From NCBI GenBank assembly GCA_017999985.1, contig JAGNKU010000002.1, forward strand, positions 124,001 to 188,000: DNA of 64,000 nucleotides. The letters run 5' to 3'. The position numbers and the translations under genes were made by a program. This stretch comes from Phycisphaerae bacterium (GTDB lineage Bacteria > Planctomycetota > Phycisphaerae > UBA1845 > Fen-1342). This document shows positions 41,071-54,934 of this stretch, piece after piece (the first letter of the stretch is position 1; each line of letters begins with the position of its first letter). The notes below the pieces were generated by a model. It saw only the letters and a program-made list of their open reading frames with translations, was not told the origin of the DNA and ran no database searches.

Positions 41071-43464
41071 ATGGCGGATGCAGACGTGAACGTAGCGCTG
41101 GTCATTGAGAGCCTCGACGGCGGCGGGTCCGAGCGCGTCGTCCAGCGTCTGGCGCTCGGCTTGGCGCAGCGCGGCCAGCGTGTCCACGTGTATTGCCTCC
41201 GCGGAGCCGACGTCCCCCTGGAGCCGCTGGCCGCCGCCGGCATCACCGTCCGCGAGGCACACAGTGTAGGTCGCGACCCCCGGCTCGCGGCTCGTCTGGC
41301 GTGGTGGCTACGGCGCGACCGGGTCCAACTGGTGCACGCCCATAGCTGTGCCGCGCTGGCGTGGGCCTTCCCCGCAGCCCGCATGCTGGGCCTGCCGCTC
41401 GTCCACGTCTGGCACGGCTGGCCGCTGGCACAACCCACACGCTACCACCGTCTGGCCGAGGTGCTGGACCGCTTCGTCAACGGCGTCGGCGTAAATTCGC
41501 AGGCCCTCCGTGCGCGCCTGCCCATCCGCCGCATCGCCGACACCGCGACGTACCTTCCCAACGGCATCGACCTCCCCTGCCTCGCGCCGGCCGACGCGCG
41601 CCGCCGGCTCGAAGCCGTGTGCCAGCGTCCGCTCGGTCGCCCCCTGGTGCTCAGCGTGGGAAACGTGCGCGTTGAGAAGGACATCTGCGGGCTGCTGGCC
41701 GCGTTCGCCGTGCTGCGTCGCGACTGGCCGACGGCCCAGCTCGTCTGCGTCGGTGCGGTCCACGATTACCGCTACTGGCGGCTGGTGCAACGCCAGATGG
41801 ACACGCTCGGCCTCGGCGACGCCGTCTGTTTTGCCGGTGCGTGCCGCGAGGCGTGGCAAGTCATGGCGGGCGCCGACGTGTTCTGTCTCGGCAGCGCGAC
41901 CGAGGCGATGCCCAATGTGGCGCTCGAAGCCATGAGTCAGCGCGTGCCGATCGTGGCCACGGCGGTCGGCGATATCGGCCGCCTGCCACCTGACCGCGCT
42001 GACGGTCCGTGGCTGCTGCGGCACAACGAAAGCGGACTGCTTGTGCCGCCGGGCCAGCCTGCGGCGCTGGCCGCGGCACTCGACAGCGTGCTGCGCGACC
42101 GGGCGGCGGCGCAGCGCCGCGCCGAACTTGCACACGCGGACTACCATCGCCGCTTCACCACCGGGCAGATGGTCGGCAACTACGAATCCTTCTATGCAGC
42201 CGCGCGACGACTGCGGCAGCGCACCAGAGGGCCGGCGCGCACGCGGCGCGTGTTGATGCTCGGCCCGGGGCCGGCGCAGGTGGGCGGCATGGTGACATCC
42301 ATCAACCTGCTCATGGATGGTCCGCTGAGCGCGCGATACGACCTGCACCGCTTCGCGACCACGTGCGACACCGGTGCGACCAACACGATGCCCCGTGGCT
42401 GCCGGCTCGCATGGTCCGCTTGGCGGCACTGGAACGCTCTGGCCCGACTGATCACGGTCCTTGTCCGCCGGCGCATCGACCTCGTGCACATCCATACGTG
42501 CAGTCACGTGACGTTCTACCGCAATCTGCTGGACATCGCGGCGGCAAAGCTGCTCGGATGTCGCGTCGTCCTGCACATTCGCGGCGGGCAATTCGAGCGG
42601 TTCTGCCGCATGGCGGGACCGACCGGCGGCTGGCTCATTCGGCGCGGCCTGCAAGCGGCGGACGCCATCCTGGTTCTCTCCGCGCACTGGCGCGAGATGC
42701 TCGCACCCTACACGGGCACGACACGGGTGTACGTTGTCCCCAGTGCTGTGCGGATCGCCGCGCTGCCGGCGCGTCGCGCCGCGCAGAATGGCCCCTGTCG
42801 ATTTCTTTATCTGGCCGCCCTGACGCACGCTAAGGGCCTCGGTGACCTCATCACCGCGGCGGCGCACCTGCGGCGCGCCGGCGTGCAGTTCAAGCTCGTC
42901 GTCGCCGGCCCCGCGACCGGTGACGCGCTCTCCGTGTGGCGGGAACGCGTCGCCTCCGCCGGGCTCGCCGACGTGACCCTGTTCACCGGCACGGTTCAGG
43001 GCCCACAGAAAACCCAATTGTTGGCCACGGCGGATTGCTTCGTGCATCCCAGTCACAGCGAAGGTTTGCCAAACGCCATCCTCGAAGCTGCGGCGGCCGG
43101 CTTGCCCGTCATCGCGACCGCGGTCGGCAGCGTGCCCGAAGTGCTGGAAGGCGACCACGAGCGGCGCGGATTGCTCGTGCCGCCGCAGTCGCCCGATCGC
43201 CTGGCCGCGGCCATGCAAACGCTGGCCGGTGACGCCAACTTGCGTGCCCGTCTCGCTGCGGCGCTGCACGCGCACGTCGCGGGGCACTACGGCCTGCCGG
43301 AGGTCTCGTCGCGCGTTGCGCGGGTCTATGAGGGTTTGCTGTCCCATCGCCGGCGCCGTGCGCAGTCTGCAACGCCCATCGCCAGTAGCGCGCGGCAGAC
43401 GTGCGCGACGGCCGGCGTGCAACCGGCCGGACAGCAGTTCCTCCGGGAGGTGTGCGCGCCATGA
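41071..43464 (+). CDS. Bifunctional glycosyltransferase: two fused GT4 domains
   Basis: A 797-residue protein formed by two full GT-B enzymes. Domain 1 (about 8-375) starts VALVIESLDGGGSERVVQRLA and has LSVGNVRVEKDICGLL and ATEAMPNVALEAMSQRVPIVAT. Domain 2 (about 393-775) starts VLMLGPGPAQVGGMVTSI and has LYLAALTHAKGLGDLI and SEGLPNAILEAAAAGLPVIAT. Each has its own Lys/Glu donor-site motifs, so both can be active. A linker rich in Arg joins them near 376-392. One polypeptide could add two sugars in succession. No frameshift or internal start signal with a Shine-Dalgarno is seen at the joint, so it is a true fusion. The stop overlaps the next ATG. Confidence 0.9.
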   Translation: MADADVNVALVIESLDGGGSERVVQRLALGLAQRGQRVHVYCLRGADVPLEPLAAAGITVREAHSVGRDPRLAARLAWWLRRDRVQLVHAHSCAALAWAFPAARMLGLPLVHVWHGWPLAQPTRYHRLAEVLDRFVNGVGVNSQALRARLPIRRIADTATYLPNGIDLPCLAPADARRRLEAVCQRPLGRPLVLSVGNVRVEKDICGLLAAFAVLRRDWPTAQLVCVGAVHDYRYWRLVQRQMDTLGLGDAVCFAGACREAWQVMAGADVFCLGSATEAMPNVALEAMSQRVPIVATAVGDIGRLPPDRADGPWLLRHNESGLLVPPGQPAALAAALDSVLRDRAAAQRRAELAHADYHRRFTTGQMVGNYESFYAAARRLRQRTRGPARTRRVLMLGPGPAQVGGMVTSINLLMDGPLSARYDLHRFATTCDTGATNTMPRGCRLAWSAWRHWNALARLITVLVRRRIDLVHIHTCSHVTFYRNLLDIAAAKLLGCRVVLHIRGGQFERFCRMAGPTGGWLIRRGLQAADAILVLSAHWREMLAPYTGTTRVYVVPSAVRIAALPARRAAQNGPCRFLYLAALTHAKGLGDLITAAAHLRRAGVQFKLVVAGPATGDALSVWRERVASAGLADVTLFTGTVQGPQKTQLLATADCFVHPSHSEGLPNAILEAAAAGLPVIATAVGSVPEVLEGDHERRGLLVPPQSPDRLAAAMQTLAGDANLRARLAAALHAHVAGHYGLPEVSSRVARVYEGLLSHRRRRAQSATPIASSARQTCATAGVQPAGQQFLREVCAP

Positions 43465-45437: not shown

Positions 45438-46088
45438 TTAGCGGCGCGGCCGGCGCAGGAGCCAGAGCCCTGCGGCGCAAGCCAGCGTGCACATCGCCGG
45501 CTCGGGAACGACGACCGGCGCCACCTCAAACCACTGCTCGGGCGCCGGAGGTATGCTGCCCTCCCAGTTGAACGTCACCGTCCCGCTGAGAATGAAGCCG
45601 CCGGCGAGCGGCAGGTCGGTCCCGATGAGCATGTAATCGGTTTCCGGTGCCGACGCCAGGTCGCCGACGTTGTACATCAGGAACCCGGGGAGCGTGATCT
45701 TCAGGTTGCTGACCACGACCGAGCGGCCAGTCCCGTCCGCACAGGCGGTCACGAGCAGGCCGTTGGTGGCCGGATCGATCGTGACCGGCGTCTGAATCGT
45801 GTAAAGATCGTCGATGCTCAAGCCTGCGATGCCACCGGCGTTGTACACGACCTTGAAGCCGTGCGCAATGCCGTCGTTCCACAGGGTGAACGGCAACTGT
45901 GTCACGCCCGGGGGATTCGCGCGGGTCAGCCGGAGCAGTTCCGTATCGCCGCGAGCCACGAATTCCAGCCCGCCGAGCAGGTACGCCTGCACCTCCGCAA
46001 AGGTGTTGAAGTGCTGGGTCGTGATCAGGTCAGCCATCGACGGCGCCGCCAGCGCCGCGCACAAAGCCAGTGCCAATACGTGTCGCAT
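45438..46088 (-). CDS. PEP-CTERM sorting-domain protein
   Basis: A 216-residue secreted protein: signal peptide (about 1-19), a body with few cysteines and a C-terminal VVVPEPAM, hydrophobic helix and RRPRR. The tail is a PEP-CTERM signal, so exosortase-dependent sorting is predicted. The sequence is not closely related to the two PEP-CTERM proteins at 7527-9130. AGGAGGG stands before ATG 46088. It lies 16 nt behind the collagen-like lipoprotein gene, so the two are probably one transcription unit inside the glycan locus. Confidence 0.82.
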   Translation of the reverse strand: MRHVLALALCAALAAPSMADLITTQHFNTFAEVQAYLLGGLEFVARGDTELLRLTRANPPGVTQLPFTLWNDGIAHGFKVVYNAGGIAGLSIDDLYTIQTPVTIDPATNGLLVTACADGTGRSVVVSNLKITLPGFLMYNVGDLASAPETDYMLIGTDLPLAGGFILSGTVTFNWEGSIPPAPEQWFEVAPVVVPEPAMCTLACAAGLWLLRRPRR

Positions 46089-46104: not shown

Positions 46105-46920
46105 TCACTCGGTTTCCGGCTGCTCGTACGGGTCGACCGACGTGTCGTACACCGCGAAGCAGAACTCCGTGTTCAGCGGGTTGAGCCAGACATCGCGGAA
46201 CTCAACCAGCACGCCGTACCCGACTTCCGGGTCGTAGTACGTGACGATTTCCTGCTGGACGATCGCGCCGGGCGTGATCAGCACGACGAGGTCGTTCGGG
46301 TCGAAATTCTCGGGGAACTGGTAGCCGACCAGCGCGATCGCGTAGACGCCGTTCGTTTCCGCGACCTTCCGCGCGTTGTAGCCGTAGCCGTTGATCGGCA
46401 CGCCGTCATGGCCGACGCAGCCGAGGGCGACCGCGTACAGATCCTTGCCATCCTCACCGTCTGCGCCAGCCGGGCCGGTGGCGCCGGTGGGACCCGTAGC
46501 GCCGGTGGCGCCCGTCGCGCCGGTTGCGCCCGTTGCACCGGTAGCTCCGGTTGCGCCGGTTGCGCCCGTCGCACCGGTAGCTCCAGTTGGGCCGGTTGCG
46601 CCAGTCGCACCCGTGGCGCCGGTAGCGCCCGTGGCACCCGTCGCACCCGTGGCTCCGATGCGTCCGGACTGGATGTCGTCCTGGATCTGCTCGTAGAGGC
46701 CGGCACGCATCTCCTGAGGATCGACGGCCACGTTTTGGCCCTGGGCTTCGTCGATCAGCTCGCCGATGATCACCGCGATGGGGATGGTGAGCAGGTCACG
46801 ACCCCAGTCCTGCAGTCCCAGGGCGCCAGCGCCGGCCGACAGCGCTCCTGGACATCCGCCCATCGTGAGCGCCACCAAGAGCGCTCCGCATACGCTCGCT
46901 ACACCAATTACCCTGGACAT
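46105..46920 (-). CDS. Collagen-like repeat lipoprotein
   Basis: A 271-residue exported protein. The signal region ends at MGGC (Cys23, a weak lipobox). Residues 89-154 are 22 uninterrupted Gly-X-Y triplets, nearly all GAT with two GPT and one each of GPA and GAD, so a collagen-like triple helix is likely. The C-terminal domain (about 165-271) is a compact beta-rich fold of unknown type that might trimerise or bind. GGGAGAG precedes ATG 46920; a longer frame from 46992 lacks a signal peptide at its front. It could form surface stalks or fibres. The gene lies just before a PEP-CTERM gene. Confidence 0.82.
46459..46656. repeat. 9-bp tandem repeat encoding Gly-Ala-Thr triplets
   Basis: Twenty-two 9-bp units (198 nt) with third-base variation encode the collagen-like region. 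Unit length is a multiple of three, so copy-number changes keep the frame and would only change stalk length. Confidence 0.9.
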
Positions 46921-47172
46921 AACTCTCTCCCTTGCACAACTCGCGCCTCTCCCTGAAGGCAATCTCTCTCCAGGAAATCCTATGGCCCGCACCTTTGGGC
47001 CCGCTCACGGAGTCGGGCGCGGACGCGGTGAGGATGGCGTTTGCCGCCGGCCGCGGGGGTATTATTGGTCACTCGGACGGTCGACCGGGGCTAATCGCAT
47101 CATTTCGCGCTGCTGTCCCATAACTCCAGATGTGCCCGCCACGAGGGGCACGCCCTGTCGCTACATCGGGCG

Positions 47173-48396
47173 CTAGCGCGCACTGAGGACTGGAGTTTTG
47201 GGGTCCGATGTGTGGAGTGCGGTTGGCCCCAGGCAGACCGCCCCGGTGGTTGGGAGTTCCGTCACCAAATGCGAGATGAACGCGACGCGCTCCTGCCAGC
47301 CCTCGGCCCGCACCAGATCCTGCCGTGCCTGGGGGTGACCATCCTGGGCCATGGCCAACGCACGCTCGCACGCCGCCAGAAACTCGGGCAGCGTCTCGGC
47401 GAGTTGGACAAAGGGCGCATAGCGGCGCACGGCGTCGAGCGGCGCAGAGACTACCGGCAGTCCAGCGGCCAGGTATTCGCGCAACTTGATCGGGTTCACC
47501 GCCCGCGTCAGCCGGTTCATGCGGAACGGTATCAGCCCGACGTCAAACCCTCGACAATACGCCGGCAGCAACCCGTACGGGCGCCCGCCGAGCAGGTGAA
47601 TGTTGGGAATATCGGCCAGCGGCGCCACGTTGCAGCGCACGTCCCCCAGGAGCACAAACGACCACTCGGGCCGGGCGCGGGCCGCGTCCGCCAGCAGGGG
47701 CATGTCCATGTAGTCGCCCACCACGCCCATGAACGCCAGCACGGGCCGCGGGACGCGGCGCAGATCCTCCGGCACCGCCGCGACCGGCAGCGTCAGCGCC
47801 CCGGCGAAATGCTCGAAATCCACGCCGTGCGGCACATGGTGTACGCGCGGGTGCCGCGGACGGTGGCGCTCGAACAGCTTGGCCGACGTCGTGATGACCA
47901 CGTCGCTGGCGGCGATCGTCCGGCGTTCGAGGTGTTCGACCAGTTCCGTGTCGTAGCCGGAGAAGGCGGCGAAGTCGTCCACGCAGTAGTACACCACCCG
48001 CTCGACCGGCACGCGGCCGATCAGTTCGGGGATATCCGGCGCGAACAGCCAGAGTTGGGTCGGTCGCTGCGGCAGACGGCGCAGGGTCCCCAGCACCTGG
48101 CGCGAGAGCAATTGGCTGTTCACGAAGCGGGCGACTCGTGAGGCCGGCAAGGGCACTAGCAGCGGTGAGAGCACGTCCATGCTGGCGGCCACGCGCCGGG
48201 GGCCGCTCCAGATTTGCCGAAGGCGGCGCACCACCAGGTGTGAGTCGCCGCGCGTGAGCTGCGGGCGGCGCGACGCGTGGTAGTTCACCCACACGACGTG
48301 GTTGTGCTGTGACAGCCGCCACATGACGTGGTGCTTGCTGGTCGGGTGGTCGAACCAGTTGCTCGCGATGCAGATGATATTGCGATCACGAATCAC
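47173..48396 (-). CDS. Glycosyltransferase (GT-B, GT4-like)
   Basis: A 407-residue protein. IICIASNWFDHPTSKHHVMWRLS and VVYYCVDDFAAFSGYDTELVEHLERR resemble glycosyltransferases that assemble exopolysaccharide in exosortase loci. The C-terminal donor half has PVLAFMGVVGDYMDMPLLADAA, HLLGGRPYGLLPAYCRGFDVGLIPFRMN and NPIKLREYLAAGLPVVSAP, where Glu of the KLREYLA motif is the donor contact. GTG 48396 overlaps the stop of the preceding gene (GTGA), which fixes the start better than the open frame to 48465. It is the last gene of the minus-strand operon. Confidence 0.84.
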   Translation of the reverse strand: MIRDRNIICIASNWFDHPTSKHHVMWRLSQHNHVVWVNYHASRRPQLTRGDSHLVVRRLRQIWSGPRRVAASMDVLSPLLVPLPASRVARFVNSQLLSRQVLGTLRRLPQRPTQLWLFAPDIPELIGRVPVERVVYYCVDDFAAFSGYDTELVEHLERRTIAASDVVITTSAKLFERHRPRHPRVHHVPHGVDFEHFAGALTLPVAAVPEDLRRVPRPVLAFMGVVGDYMDMPLLADAARARPEWSFVLLGDVRCNVAPLADIPNIHLLGGRPYGLLPAYCRGFDVGLIPFRMNRLTRAVNPIKLREYLAAGLPVVSAPLDAVRRYAPFVQLAETLPEFLAACERALAMAQDGHPQARQDLVRAEGWQERVAFISHLVTELPTTGAVCLGPTALHTSDPKTPVLSAR

Positions 48397-49679
48397 AGGC
48401 CCGACACCCCGTCTCCCATCCCAACGGCCAGGCTGACCGAACACGCGCGCGACAGGGCCGCGCAAGGCAGCGTGCGGGCCGGCTCTTCCACCTCACCGCA
48501 CAGACAACGCTCGATGCGCTGCATCTGGTCTGCCACGTCGTAATGCTCTTCCGCGAGCGCCCGGCCGCGCGCCGCAAGCGCCCGGGCCTGGGCTTCATCG
48601 CGCAGCAGCCGCACGACGGCGTCGGCGAATTCCGCGGCCGATCCGGCCACCAGGAACGGCGGCGGATCGTCGTGGTCGATGCCGGCGGCGGCCTGCGGCG
48701 TGACGACTGCCGGGCGTGCCGCCGCCAGTGCCTCAATCAACTTGGTCTGCACACCGATCTGCTCGCGCACCGGGCAAACAAAGACTCGCATGCTGCGCAG
48801 GTGGGGTCGCACGTCCTCGACAAAACCGGTGACCCGTACGCCCGGCTGCCGCGCCCAGCGGCGCACACGCCGCACCGGGCGGCTGCCCACGATCAGCCAG
48901 CGCGCCCGTGGGACCGCGCGTTTCACCAGCGGCCAGACCGCCTGCCCGAACCACTGCACGGCGCGGACGTTCGGCGGGTACGACATGGAGCCCAGGAAGC
49001 CCACGATCGGCTCGTGGGGCACCATGAGACCCTCGCGGCCCGCCGCCGTGACGGCGTATCGCGACAGGTCGACACCGGTGCGCACCACCGTGGTTCGGGC
49101 GCGGCACTCGGCCGGCAGCTTCGCGCGCTCGCACTCGTTCACCAGCAAGCTGACGTCATGGGTGCGGACCCAGGCGGCTTCCGCCCGCGGCAGGCGCTGC
49201 GCCTCCAGCCGGTAGAGCCAGCTCAGCGGCGGCGTGCCGTGCTCGGCATAGCTCGCCCACTTGCAACTCTCGACGTCGTTCATGTCCAGCACGCGGCGCG
49301 TGGCCTGCACCCGCTCCGCGTAGAGCGACATGACCGGCGAGAAAGTCAGAACGGCATCGAATCCCACGCTCGCGCCCCAGCGCTGCACGATGTCGGCAAG
49401 GCGCTGATCGAAGAAGTAGCCCTCCGTCAGGCTCCGCCCGGCCAGCAGGCTCCAGCCCCCGCGCAGCAGTGACTTGAATCCGGAGCGCACCACCACCGCG
49501 ACGGCGCGACAGCGGCGGCGGGCCTGCGCCAAATGACGGGGCCAGGGCGCCGTGCGGTCCACGCACGCCAGCCACACATCGTGCCGCTGCGCCAGGTACT
49601 CCAGCTCGCCCCAGGCGCGAATGGAGTCGCCGCGCACCGGCGGATACGGAAAACGATGCGTAAGCATGAGGATCTTCAC
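48393..49679 (-). CDS. Glycosyltransferase, exosortase-A-associated (TIGR03087-like)
   Basis: A 428-residue GT-B enzyme. ILMLTHRFPYPPVRGDSIRAW at the start, VWLACVD, RVLDMNDVESCKW, VGFLGSMSYPPNVRAVQWF and QTKLIEALAAARPAVVTP are hallmarks of the sugar transferase found in PEP-CTERM/exosortase A clusters. It is a distant paralogue of 21910-23196 (compare GSLSFPPNVEGI with GSMSYPPNVRAV). GTG 49679 is the likely start, since ILML is the first strand; ORF extension to 49721 overlaps the upstream gene. The start codon lies 10 nt after the FemAB-like gene. Confidence 0.87.
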   Translation of the reverse strand: MKILMLTHRFPYPPVRGDSIRAWGELEYLAQRHDVWLACVDRTAPWPRHLAQARRRCRAVAVVVRSGFKSLLRGGWSLLAGRSLTEGYFFDQRLADIVQRWGASVGFDAVLTFSPVMSLYAERVQATRRVLDMNDVESCKWASYAEHGTPPLSWLYRLEAQRLPRAEAAWVRTHDVSLLVNECERAKLPAECRARTTVVRTGVDLSRYAVTAAGREGLMVPHEPIVGFLGSMSYPPNVRAVQWFGQAVWPLVKRAVPRARWLIVGSRPVRRVRRWARQPGVRVTGFVEDVRPHLRSMRVFVCPVREQIGVQTKLIEALAAARPAVVTPQAAAGIDHDDPPPFLVAGSAAEFADAVVRLLRDEAQARALAARGRALAEEHYDVADQMQRIERCLCGEVEEPARTLPCAALSRACSVSLAVGMGDGVSGL

Positions 49680-49689
49680 GGTACGCTCG

Positions 49690-50799
49690 TCATCCTGGAA
49701 TCGACCTGGACAGCCACGCACCCAGCGCGCGCGTCACCACCAGCGGCAACTGCTGCCACGCGCGGCGCGCCAGCGCAAAACGCGGGTTGGAGGGCCGCAA
49801 GTCCGGTGCCTGCCGCCCCGGGGGCACGTAGCGCTGATAGCCCAGCGGCCGCGGCTCAAAACCCTGGTTCTTCTTGAAGCCCACCGCGCCGCTGTTGCCG
49901 GCCCGGCTCCGCCCGTAGTCAAAGGTCCGCAGGCCCGCCGCAACCGCCCGCTCCATGACGGACCAGTACAGCAGGTTCGCGGCGCCGTCGCAGCGCACGC
50001 GATCGTCGGCCCCGAGCACATAAGGCATGATCGTTTCGCCGAAAACCAGGCTGAGCGTACCGGCCAGCGGCCGCGCGCCGCCGTGAGCGACCGACACCCA
50101 GGCCCGTTCACCAAACCGGGCCACCAGCTCCTCAAAGAAGCGGTATGGATAGTTGATCGAACCGATACGCCGCATGCTGCGGCTGTAGAGTTCCCACATC
50201 GTGCGCAATTGGTCATTGTCGTGACGGACAACCACGCCATCCCGGTCCCGCGCGTGCCGCGCCGCGGCGCGGGCGCGCTTGGGCAGGAACGCAGCCACGT
50301 CTTCCGGTCGCTCCGGCAGCGTCCGCGTAAACCCGAGATAGCCCTCGAGCGGCGTGAACTCCGGGACGACGGCCTCCGCCGAACGCAGCTCCAGCACACG
50401 CGCTTGGCGCTCGTCGGCCACGCGCACCGCCTCCGCGGCCAGTTCCTGCGCCGCCGCCGGATCATCGGCCAGGAGGCCGCCGTACGTACCGTACGGCACG
50501 CTGACGTGCAGCCGCCCCGCGAGGAAGCTGTCAACCTCCATCAGCGGCAGGATGCCGACCGTCTCGGTGCCGCGCGTGGCGCGCAGGTGCAGCGGCCGGT
50601 GGCCGAACACCGCGGCGACGCTGGCACACCACTCGGGAGTATGAAAGACGCTGGCCCCATGCGCCGATCGCACATAACTCGCCCAGGCGCTCAGGCCCGC
50701 AGCGTCGTCAAGCGGGCGCACCAGCACGTAGCTGGTCCGCGACGTCGGGCGCGGCGCAGCGGCGTTAGTGGTAATAGTAGGAAGAGTAGTAATGCTCAT
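49690..50799 (-). CDS. FemAB-like protein, PEP-CTERM system type
   Basis: A 369-residue double-GNAT protein that matches the TIGR03019 (PEP-CTERM FemAB) pattern: SVFHTPEWCASVAAVFGHRP, GRLHVSVPYGTYGGLLAD, YRFFEELVARFG and FDYGRSRAGNSGAVGFKKNQGFEPRPL. FemAB relatives transfer aminoacyl groups from tRNA in peptidoglycan bridge formation; the substrate in exosortase systems is not known. Its first 11 codons lie inside the tyrosine tail of the kinase gene (35-nt overlap), so it is translated in coupling with the kinase. Confidence 0.88.
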   Translation of the reverse strand: MSITTLPTITTNAAAPRPTSRTSYVLVRPLDDAAGLSAWASYVRSAHGASVFHTPEWCASVAAVFGHRPLHLRATRGTETVGILPLMEVDSFLAGRLHVSVPYGTYGGLLADDPAAAQELAAEAVRVADERQARVLELRSAEAVVPEFTPLEGYLGFTRTLPERPEDVAAFLPKRARAAARHARDRDGVVVRHDNDQLRTMWELYSRSMRRIGSINYPYRFFEELVARFGERAWVSVAHGGARPLAGTLSLVFGETIMPYVLGADDRVRCDGAANLLYWSVMERAVAAGLRTFDYGRSRAGNSGAVGFKKNQGFEPRPLGYQRYVPPGRQAPDLRPSNPRFALARRAWQQLPLVVTRALGAWLSRSIPG

Positions 50800-52078
50800 A
50801 ATAGCCTGCGCCGCGCTCGCGATAGCGTGACAGTATCGAGCCTAGAATCTTGATGTTGTTGGCCTGGAGCGTCCGCACCGCCTGCTGCACTGTCGGCTCC
50901 GGCGTGCGGCGCATCTGTATCACCACGATCACGCCGTCCGACTGCGGCGCCAGCAGGCACACGTCCGAGACCGTCGTGATCGGCGGCGTGTCCAGAAACG
51001 TGTAGTCGAACCCGTTACGGAACTCCTCGAGTGCGGCGGCGACGGCATTTCCGCCGAGCAGCTCAGCGTAGCCGTTCTCTCCAGTCCGGCCCGCGGTCAA
51101 CACCTTGAGATTGGGGAACGGCGTCGGCTGCAGGGCTTGTGCCAAGCCGATTTCGCCGCGCAGGACCTCGGCCAGCCCCGGCTGCTCCGGGATGCCGAGC
51201 ATGCGTGCAATCGACGCGCGCCGGAAGTCAGCATCCGCCAGCAGAATGCGGTGCTCGCCGCCCTCGGCCATCACCAGGCTCAGGTTCAGCGCCGTGACGC
51301 TCTTGCCTTCCTCGGGGATGGCGCTCGTGATGCCGATTACCTGGGCCGCCCGGCTGGTGTTGATGGTCAGCAGGCGCGCCCGCACCGAGCGGTACTGTTC
51401 GCAGACGGCCGAGTACCGGTCATGAAAGGCAACGACGACCGGGTCGACGCGCTGGGGATTCCAGGCACCGGGAGGCTGTCTGGGCGCGCGCTTCGGCGGC
51501 GCGGTGCTCCCCGAGCGCCGCGCACCAGACTTGTCCCGGCGCGGCGCCGGCGCGGGGACCGGTTTCGGTTGCGGCGGCGACGGCACGGGCGATGGGTGCG
51601 AAACCGGCGGCGACGTCAGCGGCGCGGCCGGTGGTTCCGGCGCTGGCGGCACGAGCGATTCAGGTTCGGTTGGCGCCTCGGCCGGCTCAAGCGGCGGCGG
51701 TTGAGTCTCAACGGGCGTGAATTCCGGTTCGGGCGACACACATTCGGTCACCGGCAGGTCGGCCACCGGCGTGGGCAGAGTCTCCAGCCCGGATTCGAGC
51801 GCCTCGTCCTCGACAAACGCGGAGGCGCGCGACTCTGCCTGCCCGCTGGGCAAGCCCTCGGGGGCGGGCGCGGCCGGCGCTTCCGCCGCGAGCACCGGTT
51901 CGGACTCCGCCGGCGCACCGTCGGCCAGGATCTCGGCGACAAATGCCTCGGAGACCGGCGCCGGCGACTCCGGCGGCGTGACGACTGACTCCGGGGAGGT
52001 CAGCTCGCCGGCCGGAAGTGGTTCCGACGGCATCCCTTCCTCCTGGATCTTGCGCATTACGTCCGCCATCGATCCCAC
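50765..52078 (-). CDS. BY-type tyrosine kinase / CpsD-like chain-length regulator
   Basis: A 437-residue cytoplasmic kinase that should interact with the Wzz-like protein encoded just upstream. Residues 20-210 are Pro/Ala/Glu-rich and probably disordered. The kinase domain has Walker A SAIPEEGKS (Lys259), Walker A' ILLADADF (Asp282/Asp284), Walker B YTFLDTPP (Asp363) and the C-terminal tyrosine cluster YYEHYYSSYYYH. In CpsD/Wzc enzymes, autophosphorylation of such a cluster controls export and chain length. GTG 52078 with GAGGT upstream or ATG 52069 is the start. The tyrosine tail is double-coding with the next gene. The long N-terminal extension is unusual for this class. Confidence 0.92.
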   Translation of the reverse strand: MGSMADVMRKIQEEGMPSEPLPAGELTSPESVVTPPESPAPVSEAFVAEILADGAPAESEPVLAAEAPAAPAPEGLPSGQAESRASAFVEDEALESGLETLPTPVADLPVTECVSPEPEFTPVETQPPPLEPAEAPTEPESLVPPAPEPPAAPLTSPPVSHPSPVPSPPQPKPVPAPAPRRDKSGARRSGSTAPPKRAPRQPPGAWNPQRVDPVVVAFHDRYSAVCEQYRSVRARLLTINTSRAAQVIGITSAIPEEGKSVTALNLSLVMAEGGEHRILLADADFRRASIARMLGIPEQPGLAEVLRGEIGLAQALQPTPFPNLKVLTAGRTGENGYAELLGGNAVAAALEEFRNGFDYTFLDTPPITTVSDVCLLAPQSDGVIVVIQMRRTPEPTVQQAVRTLQANNIKILGSILSRYRERGAGYYEHYYSSYYYH

Positions 52079-52087
52079 GGCACTACC

Positions 52088-53857
52088 TCATCCCGTCGAG
52101 TGCTGGTCGGAGCGGTACAGGGCCGCAACGCCCAGCGCGTTCAGCACATGATCCACACGCTGCATCGTCCGCTGGTGCAGGTCGGGACGGGCCAGGCTGG
52201 CGTATGCCAGGCCGGCCGTCGTGACCAGCGCCAACACGAGCGCGGCCAGCGTCGGGGCCCAGACGAGCCGCCCAATCAGCGTTCGGCGGCGCTCGCGCGG
52301 CGTGGGAATCACGCCAACACATTCGAGCACCGGGATTCCCAGCGTCCTGGTGACCTGTCCCATGGAGCGGAACGAGCGGTCGAAGAGTTCGGCCAGCGCC
52401 ACGGCCAGCGCCGCCGCCGCTAGACCCAGCCCCGAGCAGACCAGGAAGATCGACGCGACGCGCGGCTTGGTGGGCAGGGTCACGTTCTTCGGTTCTTCGA
52501 TCAGGCTGAACTGCGTGCCGCGCTCGCCGCTCTCTGCCGTCATGATGCGGTCCAGGCTCGCCAAGTGCGACTGCCACAGGCCAAGCTCGACCGCCCGGTC
52601 ACTGCGGCGTTCCCGCAACTGGCGGAGCTCGTCGCCGTTCTCCACGAGCTGCCCGTAGAGCGTGGTGAAGCGCGCGACGCGCGCGTCAACTTCCTCCCAC
52701 TGCCGTTTGGTCGCGTCGAGCTGGCGGCGCAGCGAATCCAGCTCCAGGCTGATGCGCAGTTGCTGGGCCTGCCACTCGCGCGGCACCGCGGTGACAGCCG
52801 GCGGCGTCTGCGCGACTGTTACGCTGTCCGGCGTCGGGGTCGCATCCACGAGCGTCCGGCGCAGGTCCTCCAGCGCCTCGAGTTGACCGAGCAGCCGCTT
52901 TACATCGGGATGCTCCATCGTCATCCGCCGCCCGGTGACCAGCTCCACCACCTGTGCCTTGACGCTCTCGATCCCCTTGCGCAGCACGGCGTCCGCCGGG
53001 TCGACGCCCGCGGGCACGACCAGCGCGGGGGCGGAGGACGTGGGGTCCGGCGGCAGCACGTAGTATTCCGGCGCCTCGACCAGGAACTGCTCGCGCGCGG
53101 CGATCTGCGCCTCCAGGTCCGCCTTGCGCTGCTGCACGTTGTTGCGTTCGGCGCGCAGGGCCTCCAGACGGCTGCCGACGGCCACGAGGTTCGTTGGGTC
53201 CAGGCCGGGGAACTCCTCGAAGTCGCGCTGCAGCGCCTGCTCCGTCTCGACAATCTCGCGCTGGATGCGCTCGACTTCCGACTTGAAGAAATCACGCGTG
53301 CTGGTCAGGATTTGGCGGATGCGCTCGCGCGTGTCCGTGATGTAATTGTCACGGATCGCGACGACAAACTGGCGCGCCATGCCGGGGTCATTCGCCACGC
53401 AGACGAGCTGGATCGTGTCCAGGCTGGCCGAACTCTGCAGGAGACCCACCGACGGCCGCAATCCGTGTTTGCCCAGCACGCCGTCGAGCGCGCGCCGCTC
53501 CGTCTCGGACAGCGCCCCCGTGCCCGCGTCGGTCTCGGGTGGCAGCAGTCCGGCGGTCACGGCCGCCTTGAGCAACGCCCGCGACCCGATCATGTCCATC
53601 GTCAGGGTCGTTTTCATGTGGCTGAAGCTGTAGGGCGAATTGCTCTGGATGAGGTTCTGGAGGACCGCATCGTCGCGCCGCTCGAACAGCGTGGTCGCGG
53701 TGTACTCGCGCGGCAGGAACTGGCTGTACCAGAAGGCGGCCGAGCCGACGACCGACAGCCCGATCAGGGCCAGCCGCCAGCGGTGCCGGATGATGCGCAG
53801 ACACCCGCTGAGAGTGTTGCGCAGGTCCTCGAACGCCTGGCCTTGCTGATTCGTCAT
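52088..53857 (-). CDS. Wzz/GNVR-type polysaccharide chain-length determinant
   Basis: A 589-residue inner-membrane protein: one helix near the N-terminus (about 26-45), a long periplasmic part with coiled coils (about 175-260 and 400-470) and two helices near the C-terminus (about 500-520 and 545-565). REYTATTLFERRDD and IEEPKNVTLPTKPR are the usual family edges, the latter a P-rich motif before the second helix. Such proteins set glycan chain length and activate the BY-kinase, which is encoded 9 nt downstream. ATG 53857 is used; the frame to 54031 overlaps the export-protein gene. Confidence 0.9.
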   Translation of the reverse strand: MTNQQGQAFEDLRNTLSGCLRIIRHRWRLALIGLSVVGSAAFWYSQFLPREYTATTLFERRDDAVLQNLIQSNSPYSFSHMKTTLTMDMIGSRALLKAAVTAGLLPPETDAGTGALSETERRALDGVLGKHGLRPSVGLLQSSASLDTIQLVCVANDPGMARQFVVAIRDNYITDTRERIRQILTSTRDFFKSEVERIQREIVETEQALQRDFEEFPGLDPTNLVAVGSRLEALRAERNNVQQRKADLEAQIAAREQFLVEAPEYYVLPPDPTSSAPALVVPAGVDPADAVLRKGIESVKAQVVELVTGRRMTMEHPDVKRLLGQLEALEDLRRTLVDATPTPDSVTVAQTPPAVTAVPREWQAQQLRISLELDSLRRQLDATKRQWEEVDARVARFTTLYGQLVENGDELRQLRERRSDRAVELGLWQSHLASLDRIMTAESGERGTQFSLIEEPKNVTLPTKPRVASIFLVCSGLGLAAAALAVALAELFDRSFRSMGQVTRTLGIPVLECVGVIPTPRERRRTLIGRLVWAPTLAALVLALVTTAGLAYASLARPDLHQRTMQRVDHVLNALGVAALYRSDQHSTG

Positions 53858-53868
53858 GCGCGCCGTCG

Positions 53869-54690
53869 TCAATAACGTGGCCACTGCGTGCGGCGTCGGT
53901 CGCCATCGTCGCCCGACCCGAACTCGTCCTCGTACGCGTGCGTCGCCGTCATCGGACCGGCCGGCAGCGTGTACGCACTCATCAACGGCCCCACGGGGTA
54001 CAGCACTTCGCGAATCCGGTGCCCGACCCACGCCATCGGCGTCGGCGGCACTTCGATCACGTCGCCTTCCTGAAGCAGGATGTCGTTCGTCAGGTCGCCG
54101 CGCTTCGTGATGTCATCGAGGTTCACCGTGATCGTGCGGGCCTCGCCGTCCTTGGCCGACGGGCGGGTCAGCTTGATCTGCGAACGCCAGGCCAGGAACG
54201 TCGGCTGCGCTTCGGCCAGCGCCTTCAGCAGCGTGTCGCGCCCCGTGTACAGGCGCGGCCCGGGACTGCCCACTTCGCCGAAGATGTAGAAGTACTTGCT
54301 GCGGTAGCCGACCACCTCGACCATCACATCCGGCTCGACGTAGTAGCGGCTCAGCAGCGACTTCAGTTTCGCCGCGATCTCCCCGGTCGTCAGGCCGGCC
54401 ACATCCACCTCGCCCAGCAGTCGCAGCACGATCTTGCCGTCCGGCCGAAGCGTCTGCGAAGCACCATCCAGCTCGGGGACGTCCGCGGAGTGGATCGCGA
54501 CCGTGTCCGGCGGGCGCACCACGTACGAGCCCGAGGACACTTCGACTTCGTGCGATCGCAGGAAATTGCTGCGCTGTCCGTGCGTCGAGGCGCAACCGGT
54601 CGTCCAAAGCGCAGCGCTCAGAGTCAGCCAACTCGCGTACCGCAGGCGTCGCGCGGCAGTCCGCGGGATTCGGCGGCAAGACGCAACCAT
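53869..54690 (-). CDS. Polysaccharide export outer-membrane lipoprotein (Wza/PES family)
   Basis: A 273-residue lipoprotein: signal with WTTGC (Cys33), a Poly_export domain (YVVRPPDTVAIHSADVPELDG...LRPDGKIVLRLLGEVDVAGLTTGEIAAKL) and an SLBB-like domain (FYIFGEVGSPGPRLYTGRDTLLKALAEA). LLQEGDVIEVPPTPM follows. Wza-type proteins form the outer-membrane channel for capsule or EPS. It is the first gene of the minus-strand export operon. The C-terminal tail (about 235-273) is charged and unlike Wza's membrane helix, so the pore may be formed differently. ATG 54690 is set by AGGGA and the lipobox. Confidence 0.9.
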   Translation of the reverse strand: MVASCRRIPRTAARRLRYASWLTLSAALWTTGCASTHGQRSNFLRSHEVEVSSGSYVVRPPDTVAIHSADVPELDGASQTLRPDGKIVLRLLGEVDVAGLTTGEIAAKLKSLLSRYYVEPDVMVEVVGYRSKYFYIFGEVGSPGPRLYTGRDTLLKALAEAQPTFLAWRSQIKLTRPSAKDGEARTITVNLDDITKRGDLTNDILLQEGDVIEVPPTPMAWVGHRIREVLYPVGPLMSAYTLPAGPMTATHAYEDEFGSGDDGDRRRTQWPRY

Positions 54691-54934
54691 CGAATGGTCC
54701 CTTAGCTTCCTGTAGCCACGTTGGCTCACACCAGTTTCCGGCCGTCCGTGGCCACGCTCCGCGCCTCCTGCCAACGCAGTTATCGACCGATTCCCGCTTC
54801 GCATAAAACATGGTCCGCGAAGAAGTAACGACACGGTTATCGGAAGTCGAGCGCCACACCGCGGCGGAGTTCGTCTTCGCTTTCAGCGCCTCCCGAACCT
54901 AGCCGATAACAGAGGTGTTGCCGGGGGATGCGCA
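54691..54934. promoter_or_regulatory. Divergent intergenic region between export operon and ExeA-like ATPase
   Basis: 244 nt with no gene; it must carry the promoters for both transcription units. Three copies of GTTATCG occur: GTTATCGA (54779-54786), GTTATCGG (54836-54843) and its inverted form CCGATAAC (54903-54910). The last two are an inverted pair 59 nt apart and could be operator half-sites. No clear sigma-54 or sigma-70 box is found. Confidence 0.45.

Follow-up and report, generated by a model that had tools for sequence, protein, structure and literature searches.

Overlapping gene pairs mostly share little sequence, with more than 80% of them having less than 30 bp in common according to the part of a review considered here (PMC12548453). 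The same part describes the coat-lysis overlaps of the phages fr and MS2, of −38 and −50 nt, for which coupling has been shown experimentally. Long same-strand overlaps in phase 1 have been treated with a neutral compositional model, and an excerpt of that work lists NAT|GNN among the codon combinations that yield a phase-1 ATG (Sabath et al. 2008, PMC2542354). Split BY-kinases such as CpsD, CapB and VpsO, as presented in a portion of PMC4574921, place a cytoplasmic kinase with P-loop motifs and a tyrosine cluster beside a Wzz-like protein. The locus described here is like each of these, with a start codon that reads NAT|GNN and lies, as in the phages, 35-50 nt before the upstream stop, and with a kinase that has the same motifs, tyrosine cluster and neighbor. 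We consider it likely that the kinase and femAB genes at this locus form a real, long-lived and family-specific phase-1 overlap, retained as the start of femAB.

The window analyzed, a 64,000-nt stretch of DNA from a Phycisphaerae bacterium, carries on its minus strand a segment of an XrtA-type polysaccharide operon with genes for an export protein, a Wzz-like protein, a BY-kinase, a FemAB protein and glycosyltransferases:

53869..54834, minus strand: polysaccharide export protein (PF02563 above cut-off; TIGR03027 at 80.1 bits, below the cut-off of 180; ORF-finder start)
52088..54031, minus strand: Wzz-like chain-length determinant (TIGR03007 at 86.5 bits, below the cut-off of 278.85; ORF-finder start)
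50765..52078, minus strand: cytoplasmic BY-kinase of the CpsD/CapB type, with a Pro-rich N-terminal half and a Tyr-rich C-terminus (the GTG start is that of the ORF finder)
50765..50799, minus strand: 35-nt same-strand overlap in phase +1, holding the kinase end EHYYSSYYYH* and the femAB start MSITTLPTITT
50797..50799, minus strand: start codon ATG of femAB, its AT taken from the end of the kinase Tyr codon TAT (50798-50800) and its G from the start of GAG
49690..50799, minus strand: FemAB family XrtA/PEP-CTERM-associated protein, GNAT-like (TIGR03019, Pfam PF13480)
48393..49721, minus strand: XrtA-system glycosyltransferase of the TIGR03087 family, next after femAB (322.3 bits against a cut-off of 316.65)
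47173-48465: TuaH-like glycosyltransferase

The kinase scores 115.2 bits against TIGR01007, above the cut-off of 108.05. Its best profile by E-value is TIGR03018, the XrtA-associated tyrosine autokinase, where its 130.3 bits fall short of the cut-off of 230.65; we therefore call it XrtA-type and not a TIGR03018 member. Its sequence matches in the PDB include VpsO, CapB, BceF, Etk and Wzc. The P-loop ATPase motifs TS..P.EGK, D.D.RR and D.PP, which we take to be Walker A, A′ and B of the BY-kinases, are invariant in 10 of 10 aligned sequences, as are E36, R39 and R42 of the aligned kinase fragment, which make up ExxRxxR, the BY-kinase oligomerisation motif. The C-terminal tyrosine cluster is present, with eight tyrosines within the last 20 residues, and the protein ends at 50765 with ...GYYEHYYSSYYYH. 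The Wzz-like protein is its probable membrane partner. FemAB reaches 284.1 bits against TIGR03019, above the curated cut-off of 260.35. An exosortase-family gene on another contig of the same genome (TIGR02602, above cut-off) makes an XrtA-like system plausible.

Three further reading frames of the window were noted. On the minus strand, 46105-46992 encodes a protein with a long GATGATGATG repeat of the collagen-like Gly-X-Y kind, and 45438-46088 a short, secreted-looking protein whose end, VPEP...RRPRR, resembles a PEP-CTERM tail by eye and whose sole profile match, choice-of-anchor W, is below cut-off. On the plus strand, 41071-43464 is a 797-aa ORF with a tandem pair of GT4-type glycosyltransferase stretches.

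The last 35 nt of the kinase gene (50765-52078) are the first 35 nt of the FemAB-family gene (49690-50799) on the minus strand, in phase +1. Read downward from 50799, the FemAB frame is ATG AGC ATT ACT ACT CTT CCT ACT ATT ACC ACT AA(C), giving MSITTLPTITT(N), and the kinase frame is ...TAT GAG CAT TAC TAC TCT TCC TAC TAT TAC CAC TAA, giving (Y)EHYYSSYYYH*. Two coding frames on one strand, shifted by one, constitute a long phase-1 overlap, and the double coding reported in a preliminary description of this DNA, as EHYYSSYYYH and MSITTLPTITT over 35 nt, is confirmed together with its coordinates. That the phase-1 frame of a Tyr tail contains no stops is in itself a mechanical consequence and counts as no evidence; it is from the conservation of the ATG that we infer translation of the overlap in the FemAB frame.

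An AT-rich island and a weakly structured start region, both also proposed earlier, are found here as well. GC content, 67.5% across 464 kb of the genome, is as low as 33% at 50768-50803 and dips again, to 44%, at 50828-50863. The tyrosines themselves account for this AT-richness, the other Tyr codons of the family tails being mostly TAC. A stretch of 41 nt surrounding the ATG has a predicted folding energy of −3.9 kcal/mol; the median of 960 interior windows is −12.1 kcal/mol, and about 99% of them fold more strongly. With every genome measured against the interior windows of the source genome, the fold at the ATG is weak in 11 of 12 overlap genomes (at least the 87th percentile), G016 standing at 52%. 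Coupling through the unfolding of RNA would call for an inhibitory structure over the femAB start, and none is predicted in the 41 nt folded. A Shine-Dalgarno drive was rejected as a conserved feature: energies of −6 kcal/mol or lower occur at 1 of 12 overlap sites, and in the source genome at 35% of 17 unambiguous ATG starts and 11% of the 960 interior windows.

Within the taxonomic family of the source genome, FemAB is found at E 1e-30 or better in 14 of 27 genomes. A kinase match lies directly upstream of femAB in all 14, and the femAB ATG stands 26-38 nt before the kinase stop in 12, the exceptions being G019 and G001. The overlap persists among relatives, a point that the preliminary description had proposed to check. 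The kinase is found at E 1e-40 in 13 of the 27 genomes, all of them among the 14 with FemAB; in the fourteenth, G003, it is split over contigs. The distance from the ATG to the LQ of the kinase is equal in 12 of 13 genomes compared (11 of the 12 overlap genomes and G001), with G010 lying two codons further. Of 214 co-directional pairs in the source genome, 4 have an in-frame ATG at −38 to −26 and 14 have one at −60 to −10, as counted over 464 kb with a simple codon-usage gene caller and with the kinase-femAB pair itself included; the recurrence in the family exceeds chance. In a midpoint-rooted FemAB tree (42 of 43 rows, G005 not being in the tree), a branch with 100/100 support separates the proteins of the family from the rest, and ATG carriers occur in each of the two deepest lineages of the family, so a single origin before that split is the simplest reading.

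G001 is without a Tyr tail, its kinase ending in TGA just before the site, with the homologous ATG at +1 and another in-frame ATG at −20. The nested position of G001 in the family tree indicates that loss of a tail need not remove the start. At this locus (L040, 2854-2910), the sequence past the premature TGA has an in-frame TGA about where the −35 relatives stop, by a count made by eye, and no Tyr codons; it is perhaps a decayed tail. G019 has no ATG at the site and its frame is unclear: the kinase frame of this locus (L015) runs 127 nt beyond the start of the FemAB domain, in another phase and with no clear femAB start, and stop loss, a frameshift or an assembly error would each account for this. 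The junction is conserved; as an overlap it is of an ordinary kind, and its codon signature is unusually easy to read.

This signature lies in the ATG, which always consists of the last two bases of TAT (11) or CAT (1) and the G of the next codon. The residue after the ATG-bearing codon is D, E, A, V or G, its codon always beginning with G, and is D or E in 9 of 12. No enrichment of TAT was seen across the family tails as a whole. The other Tyr codons of these tails are 49 TAC and 16 TAT, against 11 TAT and 1 CAT at the ATG site (Fisher 2e-6), and the Tyr-GNN pairs of 42 related tails without a femAB overlap (38 from the sister family f8 and 4 from f2 and f6) have 85 TAC and 18 TAT, against 11:0 at the site (Fisher 5e-8), with both tests ignoring shared ancestry. 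By parsimony the wobble column of the ATG has 0 changes, whereas 22 other wobble columns have a mean of 3.77, 2 of them also having 0, for 11 sequences (without G010, G005 and G019) and with unresolved forks resolved arbitrarily. In the frame shifted by one base, TAT followed by GNN contains an ATG, and a single synonymous substitution, TAC→TAT, can thus make such a start. Selection appears to act on single bases at the start site, namely the wobble T and the following G.

Alternative start codons differ in number among the overlap genomes. In G013, G018 and G007 the stretch from −150 to the conserved domain offers no further ATG, GTG or TTG, and 8 of the 12 have some such codon between the kinase stop and the domain. 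Use of the ATG would place 35-54 residues before the first aligned residue of TIGR03019, compared with 17-18 in the FemABs of f2; the GTGs of the window at +37 and +43 would leave 13 or 11 residues before this boundary, near the f2 value. Predicted folding at these GTGs is −19.0 and −18.5 kcal/mol, and their Shine-Dalgarno energy is at background. A FemAB start further downstream, which the preliminary description had named as contrary evidence, is disfavored in the source genome, with both GTGs as less probable starts. We infer that FemAB initiates at the overlap ATG.

An AlphaFold2 model of FemAB has pLDDT mostly below 50 for residues 1-21, the first strand at 26-29 and a fold that begins near residue 22-26. 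With residues 1-21 predicted to be disordered, the FemAB leader specified by the overlap would be floppy however it is used. The part of the leader from the kinase stop to the domain is only weakly coding-like, with GC by codon position of 0.77/0.74/0.81 (domain 0.74/0.49/0.84) and pN 0.087 against pS 0.127 in one close pair, G016/G026. Within the overlap this pair, the only close one, differs by three synonymous and one nonsynonymous changes in the kinase frame and by zero and four in the FemAB frame, and variation by kinase position 1/2/3 over 11 sequences is 0.29/0.37/0.44. On this little data, four differences in one close pair, the kinase frame would be the more conserved. Selection on the FemAB leader peptide was considered and set aside, there being no sign of it: the kinase wobble position varies most and the G016/G026 changes, only four, follow the kinase frame. 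Wobble variation is lower in the overlap than upstream (0.44 against 0.58), as two-fold Tyr codons would give.

Junctions were surveyed in 85 of the 88 FemAB genomes, G098, G104 and G080 being left out for a contig edge or a partial match. The kinase is directly upstream of femAB in 43 of the 85; the other 42 comprise 41 from f8 and one from f5, three of them with less than 900 nt of upstream DNA. A class-wide kinase search matched 133 of 397 genomes, and 38 of its 43 f8 genomes were read, together with 2 from outside the order. Tyr tails occur without a femAB overlap in 42 of 42 sister-family kinases read from f2, f6 and f8. In f8, at least five of the last 25 kinase residues are tyrosines at all 38 loci read (L147-L184), and the downstream DNA examined contains no FemAB match; a relative of the TuaH-like glycosyltransferase of the window follows the kinase in 38 of 38, with a −4 nt start in several. 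In f4 and f7, FemAB lies downstream of kinases with few or no tail tyrosines. One f8 locus (L180, G068) has a phase-1 ATG 41 nt before the kinase stop from which a frame of 434 codons runs into the glycosyltransferase downstream; this may be another, possibly independent overlap, though not with femAB.

These distributions bear on the earlier proposal of an evolutionary lock between kinase tail and femAB start, which would make the two a functional unit. The persistence of the overlap at 12 of 14 family junctions and the co-occurrence of kinase and FemAB in the family are in keeping with it, but its strict form is refuted. An intact Tyr tail stands beside a separate femAB, the contrary case that the preliminary description had itself named, in f2 (3 of 3) and f6 (1 of 1), with no usable femAB start sooner than 17 nt after the kinase stop, and the f8 tails have no femAB overlap either. 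G001 keeps the ATG without the tail, some f7 genomes (e.g. G040, G052, G106 and G108) have a candidate in-frame femAB ATG upstream of the kinase stop and no Tyr tail, and the number of tyrosines, which the lock would hold constant, ranges from 3 to 9 in the last 25 kinase residues of the 12 overlap genomes. We regard a locked unit as highly improbable. We also hold it highly improbable that a kinase requirement for Tyr-Asp at this point, with a codon bias toward TAT, is the sole reason for the retention of the ATG. The D or E in 9 of 12 would suit such a need, but the residue may also be A, V or G, the Tyr becomes His (CAT) while the ATG stays, and codon bias in fact favors TAC. In f6, G031 carries a similar motif, YYYDRYYNYY, which is encoded with TAC GAT and lacks the ATG; the match is by motif, as it lies three codons farther from LQ.

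It is also conceivable that the overlap is an artefact of annotation, the true FemAB start being a GTG further downstream and the in-frame ATG a by-product of the stop-free Tyr shadow. Shadow frames of Tyr tails are indeed stop-free, in f8 (e.g. G078 and G082) ORFs downstream of the kinase likewise extend back into its tail, several members have downstream GTGs, and the leader is weakly constrained. We nevertheless find this unlikely, given the invariant ATG with its wobble and GNN signature, the three genomes that offer no other start, and the strong structure (near −19 kcal/mol) and background Shine-Dalgarno energy at the GTGs of the window. A more serious contender, though one to which we give less than even weight, is a real overlap that is uncoupled or inhibitory, in which femAB has its own initiation at an unstructured site and is hindered by ribosomes elongating along the kinase tail. 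There is no predicted structure for kinase translation to open, and stop loss typically leads to long overlaps without coupling, according to part of a published study (PMC10666635). On the other hand, independent initiation finds no conserved Shine-Dalgarno sequence here, although only about a third of the unambiguous ATG starts of the genome have one, and phage fr provides a documented case of coupling at −38 nt (PMC12548453).

On the preferred reading, a retained femAB start inside the kinase gene, this start codon would have come to lie within the Tyr-rich C-terminal tail of the kinase in or before the ancestor of the family; one synonymous TAC→TAT change ahead of a GNN codon could have created the ATG. 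With a shadow frame free of stops and little RNA structure, the tail would have been ready as an initiation region. Selection would since have kept the ATG through the wobble T and the following G, and the FemAB leader encoded by the overlap would be a disordered by-product that follows the needs of the kinase. Ribosomes that translate the kinase tail, or terminate there, may assist initiation at the ATG. Such coupling of femAB initiation to kinase translation is plausible, and our analysis leaves the chances for and against it about equal; FemAB output would then be tied to kinase translation. Only tentatively do we suggest that the phosphorylatable Tyr tail doubles as the femAB initiation region, that ribosomes finishing the kinase set FemAB output, and that the wobble base of one regulatory Tyr codon is fixed for initiation and not for protein.

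The locus offers a clean natural example of a start codon settling in a functional, repeat-like tail, with its TAT|GNN junction, stop-free shadow frame and weak structure, and a candidate case for coupling at a long overlap in Planctomycetota. It is also a warning to gene callers, as Tyr tails invite spurious N-terminal extensions. What is known of BY-kinase and FemAB function is unchanged. A literature search found no paper in which FemAB, PEP-CTERM and exosortase occur all together, and titles and abstract openings contained no description of the kinase-femAB overlap, which may still have been published; 'FemAB' is absent from the main text of PMC1569441.

Compared with the described systems, the locus is distinctive in several respects. 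FemAB resembles its TIGR03019 family in scoring above the curated cut-off and in its XrtA-type neighbors, and differs in the longer leader that use of the ATG would give it over the f2 proteins. The neutral compositional model for long phase-1 overlaps, to the extent of the excerpt considered (PMC2542354), contrasts with a Tyr-rich tail in a high-GC genome and an ATG conserved across genera. An inhibitory structure is part of the MS2 system, as the review excerpt presents it (PMC12548453), whereas the femAB site is predicted to be weakly structured. The split BY-kinases, in the portion of the source considered (PMC4574921), share the motifs, the neighbor and the tyrosine cluster; in the present kinase, the tail also holds the start of the next gene.
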